Shown here in pieces: positions 1,441 through 58,395 of a stretch of 64,000 bases of DNA (position 1 is its first letter; every line of letters begins with the position of its first letter). The translations under genes and the position numbers were made by a program. The stretch is from Rhodoluna lacicola (GTDB lineage: Bacteria > Actinomycetota > Actinomycetes > Actinomycetales > Microbacteriaceae). The DNA is taken from assembly GCF_000699505.1 (NCBI RefSeq), contig NZ_CP007490.1, forward strand, positions 1 through 64,000, given 5' to 3'. The notes below the pieces were generated by a model. That model was not told the DNA's origin. It saw only the letters and a program-made list of their open reading frames with translations, and searched no databases.

Positions 1441-1806
1441 AAATCTGAATTTTTTATAAATTCTTTATAAATATCCACATTGGGTACAACCCTGTGGATA
1501 ACTGTGGATAAATCCCTAGTTTCCGTGTAATTCCGTCTATTTGGCTGTGATATCTAGATCGCTAATTCACAACCCCAATAGTTATCCACAGAATAATCCA
1601 CAACTGTGTAAACATCTTTCATCGATGTAGTTCCGTGAGAAACATTGGTAAGTAGTTACTTATCCACATTTTCCACAGGGGTTAATAATGTTGTTTTAAA
1701 TATTTAAATATTTAGCTAACTCATAACTCTTTAGTTGGAATTACAAGAAATTTTGGGCAAAACAATTTATGCCACAATAAACCCCTAACCGAATTTGGGG
1801 AGAATC
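1441..1806. other. oriC: Replication origin oriC between dnaA and dnaN
   Basis: This non-coding stretch holds a dense cluster of DnaA boxes (consensus TTATCCACA). Perfect copies lie at 1493-1501 and 1503-1511 (both on the minus strand, in tandem), 1582-1590 and 1660-1668. One-mismatch copies lie at 1471-1479, 1594-1602 and 1669-1677. An AT-rich run at about 1681-1715, including TTTAAATATTTAAATATTTA, is a likely DNA unwinding element next to the rightmost boxes. The placement between dnaA and dnaN is typical of Actinobacteria. The dnaN promoter must also lie here, but I could not pick it out with confidence. Confidence 0.93.
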
Positions 1807-49282: not shown

Positions 49283-50089
49283 TTAGTTTTTCGCAAACAA
49301 CTTTTGAAAGTTTTCGGTGGCCGCAAGATCTCCGTTGGCAAGAATAAAAAGCGCTTCAATCCCATCTACTGCCGCTAGCAACGGGATGCCCCGGGTACCT
49401 GCCGCAAAAGCTGCGGTTGCCCAAACATCGGCGGTGACCAAATCTTTTGCCACCACACTCACCTGAACCAAATCCGTGGGTGCAGATTTTCCAGCGGCCT
49501 TGGGATTCCAAATGTGATCGCCGCGTTCCGCAGAACCGCTGGTTGCCAGGGCTCGGTAATCGGTGTTCTTCAAATCAATCACGGTGAGAATTGCGTGATC
49601 TGAAGATGCGATAGAAATTGGTTTTGAAATTGCAATGCGCCACTCTTGGTCACTGGTCAATTCATCGCTAAGCCATACATCGCCACCGGCATTCATGGTG
49701 AAGTCGTTGATGCCGGCCTGCAAAATATATTCGGCGGCGCGCTTGGCGGCCCAGGTCTTAACCACACCGGATGGATCAAAAGTATTTTGTGGAGTCATTG
49801 CGCTGAACCAACCATCGGTGCGTTTTTCCCACTCGTCGCAGGCGTCCCAAATTTCTGCCACTACCGGCGGGCAATCGGCAAGACGAGTCTCACCGCGGGC
49901 AAGCCTTGAAAGTGGTGAATCAGATTTGTAGAGACTGAAGGTTCTGTCTGCCTCGTGAAGAATCTCGCACGCTTGGCTCAGAATATTTTGAACCTCAACC
50001 TCGCCAAGTTCACTGCGACCGGCAAAACGAAAAGTCGTGCCCATGCAAATTTCTACGCGCTCAAAATAATTTCGATCAGTCGATGTCAT
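49283..50089 (-). CDS. apbE: FAD:protein FMN transferase
   Basis: ApbE attaches FMN from FAD covalently to Thr or Ser of target proteins outside the membrane. The 268-residue protein has GTTFRF, SGVVKTWAAKRAAEYILQAGINDFTMNAGGDVWLS with the conserved N-A-G-G-D, and DLVQVSVVAKDLVTADVWATAAFAAG with the D-x-x-A/T metal motif. No signal peptide is evident. It shares one base with the stop of the FMN-binding gene upstream; its targets are presumably the two FMN-binding proteins. Confidence 0.9.
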   Translation of the reverse strand: MTSTDRNYFERVEICMGTTFRFAGRSELGEVEVQNILSQACEILHEADRTFSLYKSDSPLSRLARGETRLADCPPVVAEIWDACDEWEKRTDGWFSAMTPQNTFDPSGVVKTWAAKRAAEYILQAGINDFTMNAGGDVWLSDELTSDQEWRIAISKPISIASSDHAILTVIDLKNTDYRALATSGSAERGDHIWNPKAAGKSAPTDLVQVSVVAKDLVTADVWATAAFAAGTRGIPLLAAVDGIEALFILANGDLAATENFQKLFAKN

Positions 50090-50496
50090 TAGCCCAACTT
50101 CGACATAGCACTCGACAGCGCTTGCTTGTAAGCATCGGTAGTGAAGGTGGCGCCAGAAAGATTTCCAAAGCTCGCGCTCTGCGCCTTCATTGCCTCTTGA
50201 TTCAAGATTGGAATTGCCTGATCAAAGCCCGGGCTTGCGGTGGCCTGAAGCTCTGTGATTGATTCAATCTTTCCCGCCGTTGCGGTTACCTCAAGTTCAA
50301 TCACGCCGTATCGGTATTGAATTGCATCACCCTTTACGGTTTGAGTTTTGGTTGCACCAGCTGCCGAGCCACCCAAGTCTTTGGCCGGGTTCAACCAAAG
50401 TGCATTGATTCCAATCGCTCCACCAATGCTGGCCAGCACCAACAATGTGGTTGAAAGAATCCACGGCCGCTTTTTTGAGTAGGGATTAGCCAGCAT
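50089..50496 (-). CDS. Membrane-anchored FMN-binding domain protein (second copy)
   Basis: About 135 residues from ATG 50496. An N-terminal membrane helix (WILSTTLLVLASIGGAIGINALWL) is followed by an FMN-binding domain with VIELEVTATAGKIESIT and the flavinylation motif SGATFTT, whose Thr would carry FMN added by ApbE. The start is 7 bp after the stop of the first FMN-binding gene; an earlier in-frame start would overlap that gene. It resembles its neighbour in the last 80 residues, suggesting duplication. Confidence 0.85.
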   Translation of the reverse strand: MLANPYSKKRPWILSTTLLVLASIGGAIGINALWLNPAKDLGGSAAGATKTQTVKGDAIQYRYGVIELEVTATAGKIESITELQATASPGFDQAIPILNQEAMKAQSASFGNLSGATFTTDAYKQALSSAMSKLG

Positions 50497-50503
50497 CAGG
50501 TCT

Positions 50504-51043
50504 TTAGAATTTGCCAAGAGCCGACTCCAATGCTTGCTTGAATGCCTGGGTGGTAAAGGTCGCCCCAGACACATTGCCAAAGTTTGAGCCGTTTGCGTTC
50601 ACCGCGGCCTCGGCCAGCATGCCTGGTACCACGGCCCAGTCGGGCCCCTTGGTTGAAGACTGAATTAGGTTTACGGCCGTGATGCTTGAGCCGGACTTCA
50701 CAACCTCTAGCTGAATTACCCCGTATTTATAAGCTACGGCTGCGCCGGTTTGTGACACCGATGCGGTCGCCGGCTGCTTGGTTGGCGCAGGAGCTGTGGC
50801 TTTAGTTGGTGCCGACGATTGGGATGCGGATTGGCTTGGAGCGGTGCCCGGTTCAGCGGGTGTGGCTGGTGTGGCGCTCGGCTCGGCTGTCGGGACGGCC
50901 GGGGCATCGGTGTTGTTGGTTGCAGCAGGCTGCGGAGCGGTTTCCAAGCTAAGGCCAGTATCGGCCGCTTGCCCCAGCGACCACGAAGTCGCCAGCACGC
51001 CAAGGCTTAGAACGCCAACAATATTTTGAGTTGCTTTTCTCAC
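50504..51043 (-). CDS. Secreted FMN-binding domain protein (first copy)
   Basis: A 179-residue protein with an N-terminal signal or anchor (IVGVLSLGVLATSWSLGQA), a Pro/Ala/Ser/Thr-rich linker (about 35-100) and a C-terminal FMN-binding domain with VIQLEVVKSGSSITAVNLIQSS and SGATFTT. It overlaps the reductase gene by 4 bp. Together with its neighbour it probably accepts electrons from the membrane reductase outside the cell. Confidence 0.85.
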   Translation of the reverse strand: MRKATQNIVGVLSLGVLATSWSLGQAADTGLSLETAPQPAATNNTDAPAVPTAEPSATPATPAEPGTAPSQSASQSSAPTKATAPAPTKQPATASVSQTGAAVAYKYGVIQLEVVKSGSSITAVNLIQSSTKGPDWAVVPGMLAEAAVNANGSNFGNVSGATFTTQAFKQALESALGKF

Positions 51044-52461
51044 CAGGCGTACTCCTCTGAGTGAATGTTGTCGACAGGGGTACCAGCTTTGCGCACTGTT
51101 TTAATTACGCTGTGGGTCCATGCTTCCGGGCCGCAAATGTAGACGTCGGCTTCTGAAACATGTGGCGCCATCACGGTGAGGCGAGCAACGTCTGGTGTGT
51201 TTGATCCATCATCATTTAGCCAAGAATTTTTACTAGCGCGCGGACCAGCTATCACGTGTAGTGGAAATTCTCGTCTGCGACATATTTCTTGAATCTCACT
51301 CAACAGAGATGCATCCGCTTCATTGCGCACGCGATAGATCACAGTGATGTCACCCGGGCGCGCGGCCATAGATTCGGCAAGAGTGCGAATTGGTGGAATA
51401 CCAATTCCCGAAGCAATCAAAACAACTTTTTCTTTGGTGCGGCGTTCCTCAGTGAACAAACCGTAGGGTCCTTCAATTGCAATAGAGGTACCCGGCTTGA
51501 TGTTTTGCATCAGCTTGGTGTCATCACCGCGATCACCAATCGTGAAGCGCAGGTACTCACCATTTGGCGCAGCCGAAATTGAGAATGGATGTGGGCGCCA
51601 CCACTGCGAAGGTGTTAGCACTCGCAAGAAATAGAACTGCCCCGATACCGCTTCAATCTTTTCAAGGTGCTTGCCGGTCAAATAAAGCGAGACGGTGTCT
51701 GAAGAATCACGAACGGTTTGTGCAAGCACCAGGCGCTTACGGAACGATTTACGAATCGGAATAATTACGCGGAACCAAAGAATATTTAGAAAAACAAAAA
51801 GGTAAAGCGCAACCCAGATAGTTGTCTGCACCGGCTTACCTGCTACGTCACTACCGGCTGTAAAAATATGAGGCACTGCAAGGGCTACTGAAACATAAGA
51901 TGTGAGGTGCACAAAGAACCAAGCTTCATAACTCATCTTGCGACGAGTGAAGTTGATTGAGGTCAACACCACAACAATCATCAAGGCCAAACCGATAGTG
52001 GCAATCAGCATGTCTTGTACATCGGTGATGAACCACCAAAGAGTTGTGCCGATAGCTTTGGCGTTAGTAATTGAGTACTGAACCAGCGAAGCCAAAAAGT
52101 GGGCAACAATCAGGTACAGCACCGGCTTGCCGAGGCGCTTGTGAACCACGGTTGCGCCATCGTGACCGTAGAACTTGTCAATCCAGGGAACTCGGGCAAC
52201 GAGAAGTAGCAATATCAAGAGCAGGGCGGTGCCCAATAAAGAGGTAAGCCGGCTAATTGCACCAAGTGCGCTGGGTAGATCTGTGACGCCCTTTAGCCCG
52301 CCGTCGAGCAGAAACATCACCAGCACCGTCATGATGATTGACCAGGCAATTACCTCGATCACGTCTTGGGCTCGTTTTACCCGCACCGCCTTGCGTTCAC
52401 CAATGCGAACCGCTTTATTGGGTTGGCTTAGCCGAAGTTGATTGGCCGGTGCGTCGTCCAT
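51040..52461 (-). CDS. Membrane ferric-reductase-like flavohaem oxidoreductase
   Basis: A 473-residue protein with about six N-terminal membrane helices holding candidate haem-ligand histidines (LYLIVAHFLASLVQ, AWFFVHLTSYVSVALAVPHIF), then a ferredoxin-reductase module: FAD-binding RPHPFSISAAPNGEYLRFTIG, phosphate-binding GPYGLF and NAD(P)H-binding IASGIGIPPIRTLAESM, ending CGPEAW. It would pass electrons from cytoplasmic NAD(P)H across the membrane to the FMN-binding proteins. It heads a four-gene operon with overlaps or short gaps. Confidence 0.87.
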   Translation of the reverse strand: MDDAPANQLRLSQPNKAVRIGERKAVRVKRAQDVIEVIAWSIIMTVLVMFLLDGGLKGVTDLPSALGAISRLTSLLGTALLLILLLLVARVPWIDKFYGHDGATVVHKRLGKPVLYLIVAHFLASLVQYSITNAKAIGTTLWWFITDVQDMLIATIGLALMIVVVLTSINFTRRKMSYEAWFFVHLTSYVSVALAVPHIFTAGSDVAGKPVQTTIWVALYLFVFLNILWFRVIIPIRKSFRKRLVLAQTVRDSSDTVSLYLTGKHLEKIEAVSGQFYFLRVLTPSQWWRPHPFSISAAPNGEYLRFTIGDRGDDTKLMQNIKPGTSIAIEGPYGLFTEERRTKEKVVLIASGIGIPPIRTLAESMAARPGDITVIYRVRNEADASLLSEIQEICRRREFPLHVIAGPRASKNSWLNDDGSNTPDVARLTVMAPHVSEADVYICGPEAWTHSVIKTVRKAGTPVDNIHSEEYAW

Positions 52462-53433: not shown

Positions 53434-53759
53434 TCCTTTTTAGGTAGCTCGCAAAAAGCCACTGCTTCTTCGATTGGGTTTAGCAGTAGGTCATGGGTCT
53501 CTGGGTGCTTCTCCATGTAGCGCACGGTGTATGAACAAACTGGCACCACCTTGTCAGCCCCCTGCTCACGAATGTCATTCAGTGCGAACTTGGTCAAAAT
53601 TGCAGCCAGGTTCTTGCCCTGATGCGCCGGGTTAACGTGAGTGCTCACCATGTGGATTTCACCAGGAGTCTTGCGGTACTTGAGATCGCCGACTTCTTCG
53701 CTGCCCAGAAAGATTGCGTATCGGTGTTGCTCTGGTTCGTGAATGACTTTGGCTTCCAT
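53430..53759 (-). CDS. Small GNAT-like acetyltransferase
   Basis: About 109 residues from ATG 53759. It matches the short GCN5-like family: HRYAIFLGSEEVGDLKYR, HMVSTHVNPAHQGKNLAAILTKFALNDIREQGADKVVPVCSYTVRYMEKHPE. The acetyl-CoA loop (HQGKNLA) and the CSY...HPE ending are typical. Substrate unknown. The stretch between this gene and tctC (306 bp) holds the tctC promoter and structured leader. Confidence 0.82.
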   Translation of the reverse strand: MEAKVIHEPEQHRYAIFLGSEEVGDLKYRKTPGEIHMVSTHVNPAHQGKNLAAILTKFALNDIREQGADKVVPVCSYTVRYMEKHPETHDLLLNPIEEAVAFCELPKKD

Positions 53760-53867
53760 ACTTCTAATTATGGGCCCCAATCTAAATAGGCCGGTGAGGC
53801 TCGTTTATCAAAACGTTACCTAAATTGGATTTTTGTTCTGGTTATCAGGAGTAGATTCAAGAACTAC

Positions 53868-54065
53868 TGGGGGAGTATCCCAAAGCAAGTGCAACGACAT
53901 AACCGGCTTAGGTGCCCGGGCACTTGGTCACTAGAAATAGTGACGGAGAGACTCAGTCTTCGGTCAACATTGGGGTTGACGGGTAAGACTGACCACCCCA
54001 CTGAAGACCGTCGCGGACTTTCCGCCGGAGAGTCCTCGTTCCAAATCCATGGAGGACAAAAAATC
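53868..54065 (+). promoter_or_regulatory. Structured 5' leader of tctCBA, riboswitch candidate
   Basis: Helices seen: CAAGTGC/GCACTTG (53886-53892, 53920-53926); a 7-bp GNRA hairpin GTCACTA-GAAA-TAGTGAC (53927-53944) stacked on it; CAGTCTT/AAGACTG (53954-53960, 53985-53991) with inner GTCAAC/GTTGAC (53963-53968, 53975-53980). An alternative helix GTCTTCGGT/ACTGAAGAC (53956-53964, 54000-54008) excludes the former. GGACTTTCC/GGAGAGTCC (54015-54023, 54027-54035, one G-U) competes with GTCCTC/GAGGAC (54032-54037, 54052-54057). The latter hides the Shine-Dalgarno of tctC. This layout of aptamer-like part plus anti-SD switch suggests ligand control of translation. I recognise no known class. Confidence 0.65.
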
Positions 54066-55184
54066 GTGAAGAAATTTACTATCGTCGCAACTGCGCTGGC
54101 TTTAGCTGCATCTAGCATGAGCCTGGCACCGGCTGCGAATGCGGCAGCGGTTCCAGCTGCAAAAGCGAGCGTTCTAAAAGAATGTTCAAAGCTTGGCGAA
54201 GTTGCCAAGAAGAAAGGTGCAGACGGCTCAGACCTTTTCTGCATAAAGGCCACTAAAGGTGGAATGAAGGGCAAGCAGGTTTGGCAGTACAAGAAGCTGC
54301 CTGTTATCAAGAACTTGGACGTTATTGTTCCAAACTCACTGACCTCTGGTTTTGGTGGGTTTGGTAAGGCAATTGCTGACGCACTTAAGGCAGAGGGACT
54401 TACCGATGCCGAGCCAGTACTAACCTCAAAGCCAACCCCGTACAGCAACAGCTTGAAGTACGTCAACGAAGAGATGGCTGGTAAAGCCGGCAAGCTTGCA
54501 GTGACCGGATTCGCTCAGGTAGGTGGAGCATTCACCGCTAAGGCTGGATCTTTGGTTTCTGACGGTACTCCGGTAGCACGTATGTACGCAGAGTACAGCG
54601 CTATTGCAGTGAAGGCTGACTCAAAGTACAAGACCATCGAAGAGTTGGTTGCCGACATCAAGAAGGACCCAAAGTCAATGGCAATCGTAGGTAACGCCGT
54701 TGGTGGTGTTGACTACTTCGTTGCTGCTCAGCTTTACGAGGCACTAGGTCTGACCGTCAAGGACATGAACTACACAGCAAACAGCACTGTTGCAGCTTCA
54801 ATCCTGAGTGATGCCAAGTATGCTTTCGCAGTTTCTGGTTACGGTGACTTCCCTTCATACGTTCAGGCTGGAACTCTAAGACTGTTGGCAGTAACTGGTC
54901 CAACCCCAATCAAGGGTGTAAATGTACCAACCCTGGTATCAAAGAAGATTGACGTTGTAGTTCAGAACTGGCGTGGAATTGTATTGCCACCAAAGACCAG
55001 CCCTGCCGGACGCGCACTAGTAATTCGCGCACTTGACATCGTGAACGCATCGCAGTCATTCGCCACTTACCTAGAGACCCAGAAGGCCTTCTACAACTGG
55101 CTACCTGGAACAGCCTTTGATAACTGGCTAAAGGGTGAAGAGAAGAAAATCCGCAGACTATACGCTGAAATCGGTCTTTTGTGA
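54066..55184 (+). CDS. tctC: Tripartite tricarboxylate transporter receptor TctC
   Basis: The extracytoplasmic solute receptor of a TTT transporter. The 372-residue protein starts at GTG 54066 with GGAGGA at 54051-54056, decisive over the longer open frame. A signal peptide (VKKFTIVATALALAASSMSLAPAANA) is followed by an extra domain of about 45 residues with two cysteines and a GKQVW motif (ECSKLGE...LFCIK). The TctC fold then begins at DVIVPNSLTSGFGGFGKAIADAL and continues to VQNWRGIVLPPKTSPAGRAL. The stop overlaps tctB by 3 bp. The ligand is a carboxylate by family, identity unknown. Confidence 0.92.
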   Translation: MKKFTIVATALALAASSMSLAPAANAAAVPAAKASVLKECSKLGEVAKKKGADGSDLFCIKATKGGMKGKQVWQYKKLPVIKNLDVIVPNSLTSGFGGFGKAIADALKAEGLTDAEPVLTSKPTPYSNSLKYVNEEMAGKAGKLAVTGFAQVGGAFTAKAGSLVSDGTPVARMYAEYSAIAVKADSKYKTIEELVADIKKDPKSMAIVGNAVGGVDYFVAAQLYEALGLTVKDMNYTANSTVAASILSDAKYAFAVSGYGDFPSYVQAGTLRLLAVTGPTPIKGVNVPTLVSKKIDVVVQNWRGIVLPPKTSPAGRALVIRALDIVNASQSFATYLETQKAFYNWLPGTAFDNWLKGEEKKIRRLYAEIGLL

Positions 55185-55714
55185 TTTTAGATAAAAAGCG
55201 TTCTGCAAAGGGGGAGCTGGTTTTTACCAGCTTCCTCTTTCTCGCGGGTGTAGTTGTGTTGTGGGATGCAAGTCAGCTTCCCGAATTAGCTTCTGCAGAT
55301 TTTGTTGGAAGTAAAACTTTTCCAAGCATTATTGGTTGGTTGCTAATCATCTTGTCTACCCTTCAATTGATCTCTGTTGCCCGAGGAAACCTTGGAGAAC
55401 CAGAGGAAGTCGAAGGTGGTCAAGTTGCCAGCAAGTTGCGACTAAAGCCATTCCTATTGATGATTACCGGGCTGCTGGTGTTTGCATTTGGATTACCAAT
55501 CATTGGATTTCCAATTGCCGCAACGATTTTGTTCGCATCGGTGGTCTACGCATTAAATCCAGCGAAGACAAAATGGTTTATTGCCATTCCCATTGCAGCA
55601 GCCACCGCTGCGGTTGTTTATTTTGGTTTCACCCTTGGCCTGCAAATTGATCTGCCTTGGGTATTTAATTTTGACTTTGGCCCTGCTGAGGTTGTTGTGG
55701 AAGAGGACTGGTAA
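55181..55714 (+). CDS. tctB: Tripartite tricarboxylate transporter small subunit TctB
   Basis: A 177-residue protein with four membrane helices: a first helix ELVFTSFLFLAGVVVLWDASQLP, GSKTFPSIIGWLLIILSTLQL, a long soluble loop, then two or three C-terminal helices. This is the TctB layout. It starts at GTG 55181, inside the tctC stop, and ends in the ATG of tctA, so the three subunits are strictly coupled. Confidence 0.9.
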   Translation: MILDKKRSAKGELVFTSFLFLAGVVVLWDASQLPELASADFVGSKTFPSIIGWLLIILSTLQLISVARGNLGEPEEVEGGQVASKLRLKPFLLMITGLLVFAFGLPIIGFPIAATILFASVVYALNPAKTKWFIAIPIAAATAAVVYFGFTLGLQIDLPWVFNFDFGPAEVVVEEDW

Positions 55715-57207
55715 TGGACTTTGGTTCTTTTCTTGAGGGTTTCTCAAACTCCCTGACAATCACAAACCTTGGCTTTGGACTTTTGGGTTCATTGCTTGGA
55801 ACTTTGGTAGGTGTGCTTCCGGGCATTGGTCCAGCTCTAGCAATCTCGTTGCTATTGCCGGTCACCTATGGTCTTGAGCCGCAGAGCGCGATCATCATGT
55901 TCTGCGCCATTTACTATGGCGCAATGTTCGGTGGCTCTACCACCTCAATTCTTTTGAATGCACCAGGTGAATCTGGTTCGGTAATGACAGCCATCGAAGG
56001 AAACAAGATGGCCCGGGCCGGCAAGGCCGGAGCCGCGCTTGCTACGGCGGCTATCGGTTCTTTCGTAGCTGGTGCAATTGGCACAGGAATTCTGGCGATT
56101 GCGGCCCCTGGCATTGCAGCCCTTGGCCTAAAGATGACTCCGCCAGACTTTTTTGCTTTGATGATTTTGGCCTTCGTGACCGTGAGCTCGCTAATGGGGC
56201 GTTCGATTAATCGGGGTCTAATTGCACTGACCATTGGTCTGGTTATTGGCATGGTGGGCATTGATCCCAACTCTGGCGCAGCCCGACTTTCGTTTGGCAG
56301 CCCAGATGCCATGGAGGGGTTCTCAACCGTAGTGGTTATTGTGTCTTTGTTTGCGGTTTCTGAGGCGCTGTACATTGCGCTCTCGGGTCGGCTTGAAAGC
56401 GGAACCCTGAACAAGCTGGTTGGTTCGGCTCGCATGAATAAAGAAGAGTGGGGTCGCTCTTGGAAGCCATGGCTTCGTGGCACTGCGATTGGTTTTCCAA
56501 CCGGAGTCATGCCAGCGGGTGGTTCTGAACTACCAACCTTTTTGAGCTACACGCTTGAGAAGAAGCTTTCCAAAAATTCAAGCGAATTTGGCAAGGGTGC
56601 AATCGAGGGCGTTGCAGGGCCAGAGGCAGCAAATAATGCCAACGCGGCAGGAGCACTGGTGCCACTTTTGGCCCTGGGAATTCCAACCTCGGGAACAGCG
56701 GCAGTAATGCTTGCAGCCTTTGATCAATTCAGAATCAGCGCCGGCCCAATGCTTTTCGCAGAGCAGCCGCTTTTGGTCTGGACTTTGATTGCATCTTTGT
56801 TCATCGGAAACTTCTTGCTACTGGTAATTAATTTGCCGCTGATCAAGATGTGGGTTCAAATTCTAAGAGTGCCGGCACCATATCTATTTGCCGGAATTCT
56901 GGTATTTGCCATGGTTGGTGCCTACTCGATCAAGAATTCAACTTTTGATCTTTTGGTTGCAATTGGTATTGGTGCGCTCGGAATGATTCTGCGCAGGTTT
57001 GGCTACCCAATTACTCCACTGATTCTTGGTGCGATTCTTGGGCCAATGGCCGAGACGCAATTCCGCCGGTCAATGCAATTGAGCCAAGGTGACCCAGGAA
57101 TCTTCATCAGCACACCGTTCACGATTATTACTTACCTGCTGATGTTGGTTGCCCTTGGTTGGCCGTGGATCAATAAAGCAATCAAGAATTCTCGCGTAAA
57201 GAACTAG
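55714..57207 (+). CDS. tctA: Tripartite tricarboxylate transporter large subunit TctA
   Basis: The 497-residue permease has about 12 membrane helices and the TctA motifs [60 protein letters not shown] and [41 protein letters not shown]. TctA forms the sodium- or proton-coupled transport path. It overlaps tctB by one base; an MFS gene follows after 9 bp. Confidence 0.95.
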
Positions 57208-57216
57208 GCTCAACTA

Positions 57217-58395
57217 ATGAGCAGCAAGACAACGAGTGGTGGCCATTGGCTGCCACTCGTTGTTTTCAACTCCCTGATGATTCAGGGGGGCATTTATGTG
57301 GTGCGCCCAATTGTTTCTTACAAAGCACTTGAGCTGGGCGCTGATGCGGCGATGGTTGGAATCATCGGTGCCACTTTTGCTCTGGCGCCCCTAATTTTTG
57401 CAATTAGATTCGGCCGGGCCGTGGATAAGGGCAAATCCGGATTGGCAATGTTGTTTGGATCAATCATCTTGGCACTCACATCTTTTGGTTTGCTTTTTGT
57501 GGATTCAATACCGTTGCTAATGATTGCAATGCCGTTACTTGGAATCGGTCACCTGCTCTGTATGGTTGGTGGTCAAACCATGATTGCTAATAGGTCCCAA
57601 TCCAAACTCTATGAACGAAACTTTGGACTCTTTACTTTTTACGCTTCGCTTGGCCACGCTTTTGGCCCGCTAATTGGTGGTTGGCTGGCTGACTCTGGAG
57701 AGCAGCGTGTGAATGCAAATGCCGCATTCACATTTGCAATCGTGATTTTTATTCTTGCCGCAATAAGCGTCTTGAAACTTTCTACTCGGCGAGAGAACCA
57801 GCCAGTTCCAGAAAAGACCAGCGCAAAGATTACGGCGCGAGAGGTGCTGAGCGTGCCAACTTTCAAGTCAGCCATCTTTGTGGCCAGCGCAACAACTGCC
57901 GTCGTTGACGTGCTGCTGATCTTTTTGCCTTTGCTTGGGCGGGAGCTGGGCATTGGTGTGACAGAGGTTGGAATCTTGCTGGCGATCAGATCCGTTGCGT
58001 CAATGGCAGTGCGTGTGTTGCTGGGGCAGATTACCAATTGGCTTGGTTTGCGAAAGATCTTGATCTGGGGAGCATCTGTAACTCTGGTAAGCATGCTGGC
58101 TCTTGCCCTCACCGATAATTTCTGGGTGATTGCCTTGATTATGGTGGTCTCTGGCTTTGCGATGGGCATTGGACAACCGGCTACCATGGCCTGGGTCTCG
58201 CGGATTTCATCGGCCGACAGCCGCGGGCTGGCGATTGCAATTCGCCTGACTGCAAATCGTTTTGGCCAGGTGGCCATGCCGGCAGTTGCTGGTTTGATTG
58301 CGGTCGGCGGGGTTGCATCGGTGTTTTACATGTTGGCATTGGTTCAAGCAGGATCAATCTTGGCAACCGCCCGCGCGTTAAAGTCGGAAGATTAG
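57217..58395 (+). CDS. MFS transporter
   Basis: A 392-residue protein with about 12 membrane helices. It shows the MFS A-like loop IRFGRAVDKGKSG between helices 2 and 3, LGHAFGPLIGGWLAD in the middle and GMGIGQPATMAWVSRI in the second half. It starts 9 bp after tctA and is likely on the tct transcript. Whether it moves a related organic acid or exports a toxic compound cannot be told. Confidence 0.87.
   Translation: MSSKTTSGGHWLPLVVFNSLMIQGGIYVVRPIVSYKALELGADAAMVGIIGATFALAPLIFAIRFGRAVDKGKSGLAMLFGSIILALTSFGLLFVDSIPLLMIAMPLLGIGHLLCMVGGQTMIANRSQSKLYERNFGLFTFYASLGHAFGPLIGGWLADSGEQRVNANAAFTFAIVIFILAAISVLKLSTRRENQPVPEKTSAKITAREVLSVPTFKSAIFVASATTAVVDVLLIFLPLLGRELGIGVTEVGILLAIRSVASMAVRVLLGQITNWLGLRKILIWGASVTLVSMLALALTDNFWVIALIMVVSGFAMGIGQPATMAWVSRISSADSRGLAIAIRLTANRFGQVAMPAVAGLIAVGGVASVFYMLALVQAGSILATARALKSED

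Follow-up and report, generated by a model that had tools for sequence, protein, structure and literature searches.

A candidate yybP-ykoY-type Mn2+ riboswitch upstream of an actinobacterial tricarboxylate transporter operon

Introduction

What does the leader of the Rhodoluna lacicola tctC gene sense, and how would it control the transporter genes that follow? In the window (the whole 64-kb stretch analysed, whose coordinates we use throughout), this leader is bounded on one side by a divergent minus-strand GNAT gene, whose first codon is at about 53759-53780, and on the other by the GTG start of tctC at 54066. Downstream on the plus strand lie tctC, encoding the receptor (54066-55184; Pfam TctC, 1.7e-11), tctB (55181-55714; Pfam TctB, 2.8e-19), tctA (55714-57207; Pfam TctA, 2.3e-144) and, as the next same-strand gene, an MFS transporter (57217-58395; Pfam MFS_1). 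A preliminary description of this DNA recognized a riboswitch-like leader with a translational layout, which it fitted to no named class and for which it proposed a carboxylate, a metal-citrate complex or a linked metabolite as ligand. On sequence grounds, we assign the leader to the yybP-ykoY (Mn2+) class, in the alx-like form that lacks helix P2. The class itself is already known; what is new is a member that the library model in current use overlooks and that stands before genes not expected as its target.

Results

A complete aptamer precedes competing helices

Folding of the leader (53860-54075) gave -77.6 kcal/mol, whereas shuffled sequences averaged -62.8 (z -3.2); of 200 shuffles, 199 folded worse and 1 matched it. 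Its complete aptamer spans 53866-53957 on the plus strand and comprises P1, L1, P1b, P3, L3 and P4. The outer helix P1, which closes the aptamer and had been overlooked, joins ACUGGG (53866-53871) to CUCAGU (53952-53957), the switching strand; it is paired in all nine of the orthologous leaders treated below. Within it, loop L1 consists of GGAGUA (53872-53877) on the 5' side and GAGA (53948-53951) on the 3' side, followed by P1b (53878-53880/53945-53947). The P3 hairpin (53886-53926) contains P3a (53886-53892/53920-53926) and, in a by-eye reading, an inner GGC/GCC pairing (53905-53907/53914-53916). Its L3 loop, CGACAUAAC (53895-53903), faces CGG (53917-53919), and A53899 is the equivalent of the Mn2+-sensing adenosine. 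P4 (53927-53944), read from the sequence, carries a GAAA loop. The two stacked hairpins first noticed at this locus are thus P3 and P4, exactly where they had been placed.

Two mutually exclusive helices follow, both likewise present in the sequence as reported. P5 (53954-53991, pairing 53954-53960 with 53985-53991) overlaps the P1 3' strand and excludes P1, and is suggestive only; P6 (53956-54008, pairing 53956-53964 with 54000-54008) excludes P5. P6 was read from the sequence of the window and by eye is partial or weaker in several other tct leaders. A 9-bp hairpin (54015-54035), also as first described, adjoins the anti-Shine-Dalgarno (anti-SD) strand; by eye it is recognizable in some same-genus leaders only and so is not common to all. 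The anti-SD itself, GUCCUC (54032-54037), is complementary to GAGGAC (54052-54057) within the tctC Shine-Dalgarno (SD) sequence GGAGGAC (54051-54057). Scanning 53700-54100 returned no promoter-like site, in a kind of scan that actinobacterial promoters may escape, and no terminator-like site on the plus strand around the tctC leader.

Nine orthologous leaders share a covarying aptamer

We searched two genera, 89 genomes in total, for TctC at E<=1e-20 and found matches in nine, namely 4 of 67 in the window's own genus (g1) and 5 of 22 in a second (g28); the same leader was present at all nine of these loci. We aligned the nine aptamers over 94 columns with MAFFT, without fitting them to a structure, and counted on this alignment a structure drawn from those same sequences. 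P1, P1b, P3a and P4 together had 92.4% of cells paired and two-sided changes in 12 of 22 pairs; none of 500 shuffles reached the covariation score, and slid versions of the structure were at most 54% paired. Two-sided changes affected 6 of 7 pairs in P3a and 2 of 6 in P1, and one P1b pair varies as CG, UA or UG; a fourth P1b pair is absent from three g1 leaders, the window's own among them. P4 was paired in 75.6% of cells on this alignment, where three g1 leaders, again including the window's, look one column out of register. The covariation among related tctC leaders that the preliminary description had named as a check is therefore found across nine of them, and together with wide conservation it backs a riboswitch-type leader with a translational layout.

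Beyond the two genera, a covariance model built from the nine leaders (R1) had no match at E<=1 at 24 more distant TctC loci, of which 23 lie in further genera of the same family and one in Pararhizobium; this covered part of the 84 genomes with a TctC match. The leader DNA, searched against 40 genomes, found nothing convincing except itself (best other match E 0.002, 34 nt, in one genome), and viral contigs gave no match. A search of genome contigs returned only a distant Pararhizobium TctC. As a separate observation, tRNA genes precede the aptamer by some 100-250 nt at L025, L026, L027 and L053, that is, in 4 of the 5 g28 genomes with the operon, marking a possible insertion site.

Reciprocal models place the leader among Mn2+ riboswitches

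Among 394 genomes of the class, R1 found a match in 162 (E<=0.05, the leader's own genome counted); among 398 of the family, it did so in 129 (E<=0.01, seven tct genomes counted). We examined 71 of these loci, taking the best-scoring ones plus 20 picked by hand; some are near-duplicates, and L143 repeats L100. Within 1.5 kb downstream, 65 had a TerC/Alx gene, 2 had GDT1 (which we take to be the MneA family) and 4 had neither. Those four (L097, L113, L115 and L118, the last with an open reading frame carrying a sub-threshold baeRF_family3 match) are possibly further unusual targets or chance matches. At L095, two Mn2+-type aptamers (210-314 and 1501-1596, minus strand) are separated by about 1.2 kb, and a TerC/Alx-type gene follows each of them; L110 contains the second aptamer as well.

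A second model, R2, was trained without any tct leader on 52 TerC/GDT1 loci, giving 53 rows (52 distinct, the L095/L110 place being counted twice); 19 of the 71 loci were omitted, 4 without TerC or GDT1 and 15 look-alikes by eye. The 52 actinobacterial terC/GDT1 aptamers align end to end with the tct leaders and share the same four helices, and their alignment, made to R1 and hence biased to the structure by construction, had 96.3% of cells paired and two-sided changes in 20 of 22 pairs. It also shows covariation in P4, which is weaker on the nine-leader alignment. R2 recovered all nine tct leaders at 47.9-73.9 bits; across the 64-kb window its sole match at E<=1 was 53866-53957 (49.8 bits, E 4.6e-11).

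R2 also found the E. coli alx Mn2+ riboswitch (45.7 bits, E 6e-10); its matches at E<=1 did not include the mntP leader, in which a P2-like hairpin is present. R1 with default filters found neither; with filters off, it gave the mntP leader as the best match in its 701 nt (15.9 bits, E 4e-4) and reached only 4.8 bits (E 0.73) on alx. Because R1 loci precede TerC/GDT1 and R2 finds both the tct leaders and alx, we place the leader in the yybP-ykoY class, in contrast to the initial view that no named class fits. The suggestion that this is instead a wholly new class for citrate or another carboxylate, which draws on the transporter genes downstream and on the lack of any Rfam riboswitch at the gathering cut-off in the window, is scarcely credible given matches from models on either side and a TerC/GDT1 context that give homology to the Mn2+ class.

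The library model misses alx as well

At curated cut-offs, Rfam reported nothing on the leader and no riboswitch anywhere in the 64-kb window; at E<=10, it gave four microRNA- or frameshift-type matches to the leader, far below their cut-offs and all on the other strand. The yybP-ykoY model RF00080 matched none of the nine tct leaders at E<=5, nor any of them in searches of 13 whole genomes at E<=10. It had no match at cut-off on 18 R1 loci, and on 20 R1 loci at E<=1 it gave one partial 18-bit match, inside the L077 aptamer. We then compared accepted members: in Rfam 15, RF00080 did not match E. coli alx at E<=1 and scored mntP at 41.6 bits, below the 45-bit cut-off (test segments L062:876-999 and L063:962-1058). 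The Rfam check put forward earlier therefore yields no confident match, as the claim of novelty had required, yet this silence carries little weight because RF00080 misses alx too. It tests the library model more than class membership, and we rejected a new class based on Rfam silence alone for the same reason.

Actinobacterial Mn2+-type leaders as such are already known: PMC3890552 gives a yybP-ykoY prediction in an older Rfam (49.13 bits) for the Corynebacterium glutamicum cg2157 terC leader, which was also seen by RNAseq. Since RF00080 missed 18 of 18 R1 loci at cut-off while R1 matches 162 of 394 genomes, the annotation of this group probably overlooks part of its Mn2+ regulons.

The aptamer core resembles that of Mn2+ sensors

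On its 5' side, L1 reads GGAGUA without exception, both in the 53 TerC/GDT1 rows (52 distinct) and in the nine tct leaders. Its 3' side was GAGA in 9 of 9 tct leaders, with 48 GAGA and 5 AAGA among the 53 rows, and the Mn2+-sensing adenosine of L3, judged by alignment column, was kept in every tct leader and every row. PMC6754395 prints L3 as UCA41AU43UC in Lactococcus lactis and ACA48U49ACU52 in Xanthomonas oryzae, with A41 and A48, respectively, making the N7 contact to Mn2+. We had considered that this adenosine is replaced by U in the tct leaders and rejected the idea, as that numbering puts the site on the invariant A. With a core that is that of Mn2+ sensors, the carboxylate or metal-citrate ligand proposed at the outset found no support.

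The L. lactis and X. oryzae riboswitches, whose structures are solved (PMC6754395), share with the tct leader the L1/L3 docking motifs, the Mn2+-sensing adenosine and a P1.1-type switch helix; they differ in having a four-way junction and transcriptional control. In the tct leader, three helices rather than four meet at the junction, the P2 hairpin being absent from all nine tct leaders and, by eye, from alx. We take the missing P2 as a subtype difference, because alx, an accepted member, lacks it too. By eye, the alx leader shares L1 GGAGUA/GAGA, an L3 of CGUCAUUAC with CGG opposite, P1, P3 and P4; it differs in its longer P3 and P4 and in the gene downstream, alx, annotated as a Mn2+ exporter.

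L3 is where a changed ligand might show. A yybP-type variant that responds to another divalent ion or to a metal-carboxylate complex would suit a transporter, and a 2020 review (PMC7266159) expects yybP variants of other metal specificity that would explain genes unsuited to Mn2+. The four g1 leaders, with CGACAUAAC (in two), CGACAUACC or CGCCAUUCC, all lack CGUCAUCAC, the form that occurs most often before TerC (32 of 53 rows). The g28 tct leaders, however, carry CGUCAUCAC in all five cases, L1 and the sensing adenosine are invariant, and both GDT1 leaders also have CGACAU, the window's CGACAUAAC being close to the GDT1 form CGACAUACU (L109) and to that of X. oryzae. We therefore regard a changed ligand as improbable and Mn2+ sensing, whether it turns the operon on or off, as the probable function of the tct leader.

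Relatives favour an ON switch

How Mn2+ would act is less clear from the tct leaders themselves, where P5 and the anti-SD are less well supported than P1 and P3. The anti-SD:SD duplex is worth -11.4 kcal/mol, with a shuffle p of 0.088 for the window's leader; combining the nine leaders gave p 0.0009 for anti-SD complementarity, a value that is not a true probability as the leaders are related. The same caveat applies to P5, for which shuffles gave p 0.395 in the window's leader and 0.053 for the nine combined.

The terC/GDT1 leaders read by eye are built differently downstream of the aptamer, in that the P1 3' strand masks the ribosome site directly, and TerC or GDT1 follows in place of tct. 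We forced P1 to form in TerC/GDT1 leaders, scoring 49 of the 71 loci and setting aside 22 (3 duplicates and 19 with only 5 of 6 P1 pairs) and taking as SD the best SD-like hexamer 10-60 nt past P1, with start codons unchecked. Predicted SD accessibility rose by more than 0.1 in 26, fell in 4 and stayed within 0.1 in 19. A ribosome site masked by the P1 3' strand, together with an SD-like site that becomes accessible once P1 is imposed, fits an ON switch. Reporters of alx and mntP were likewise switched on by Mn2+ (PMC9603457); the same paper reports that the alx leader also responds to alkaline pH.

Forced P1 in the tct leaders gave no single answer: accessibility rose in L026 and by 0.10 in L025, fell in L027 and L028 and changed by at most 0.06 in the other five. 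In a separate folding run, L025 and L026 went up, L027 and L028 down and L052 slightly down. The sign for tct is accordingly inferred from the relatives, and the larger share of our confidence in a Mn2+ riboswitch goes to Mn2+ turning tctCBA on.

The same aptamer could act with the opposite sign: Mn2+ would turn tctCBA off, in a feedback loop acting on the uptake of Mn2+ or Mn2+-citrate. The tct platform is unlike that of TerC leaders, its anti-SD not being the P1 3' strand itself, and the folding predictions for L027 and L028 go the way of an OFF switch. L026 (and L025) are opposite and the remaining five hardly change, the TerC/GDT1 relatives favour ON by 26 to 4 (n=49), and alx and mntP are ON, so we consider an OFF switch unlikely. 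Much less likely still is a relic, an aptamer inherited from a TerC leader with its regulation lost: the tct platform folds do give no shared answer, but P1, P3a and L1/L3 are kept with covariation in two genera and at 9 of 9 loci, even though the TctC proteins of the eight relatives share just 39-62% identity with that of the window.

What this comparison observes directly is the aptamer fold and its homology to TerC, GDT1 and alx leaders, together with the residues of L1 and L3 that do not vary and the linkage to the operon. The explanation that we prefer is that the leader would be a cis-acting, P2-less Mn2+ riboswitch of the yybP-ykoY class that controls tctC translation and probably, by extension, the whole tctCBA-MFS operon. 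Mn2+ would dock L1 onto L3 and stabilize P1, which would withdraw AGU (53955-53957) from P5; with P5 lost, P6 could form and the SD would be freed, turning the operon on. We would guess that an excess of Mn2+ leads cells to alter carboxylate or metal-carboxylate traffic.

In two genera the aptamer accompanies the transporter operon

The window and all eight relatives have the order tctC-tctB-tctA-MFS, which replaces the usual downstream gene of yybP-ykoY RNAs, one that serves Mn2+ export or metalation and does not define the class. In Vibrio, for example, Mn-sensing leaders have TerC and MneA genes downstream (PMC13274385). With strict filters, R2 matched exactly the nine genomes with tctC among 80 genomes of g1 and g28; none of the 9 genomes omitted from the 89 had a tctC match. 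TerC was above cut-off in 16 of 17 g1/g28 genomes searched, with two TerC genes in the window's genome, and in those 17 genomes R2 matched nothing beyond the tct leader and neither GDT1 nor MntP genes were found (0 of 17). In g1 and g28, then, the aptamer is tied to the tct operon, and none was seen before a TerC gene. We infer that it moved to the operon from a TerC-type leader.

Discussion

The leader connects an RNA of a metal-sensing class with transporters of the tripartite tricarboxylate family; among the open-access titles and abstract openings searched, none described such a connection. Tentatively, these small-genome actinobacteria may have detached a Mn2+ aptamer from exporter genes and put it before a tricarboxylate transporter, placing carboxylate uptake under direct Mn2+ control as a physiological response in its own right, or may have retuned it to another metal or metal-carboxylate signal. 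With the tct leader, one can ask directly if yybP-type RNAs that precede 'wrong' genes respond to Mn2+ or to another signal, a question raised in PMC7266159.

The aptamer also stands before methylcitrate-cycle genes in two of the nine genomes, where tctCBA-MFS is succeeded by genes for PrpD (MmgE_PrpD domains) and for a lyase resembling PrpB (L173:157-2588 and L175:6288-8755). By NCBIfam, the L173 genes matched methylisocitrate lyase at 373.6 bits, above cut-off, and PrpD at 816 bits, below its cut-off of 950. These neighbours hint that the transporter substrate may be a methylcitrate-type tricarboxylate. Elsewhere in the window, consecutive minus-strand genes at 49283-52461, read by eye from their open reading frames, include one ApbE-like, two FMN-domain-like and one ferric-reductase-like gene.
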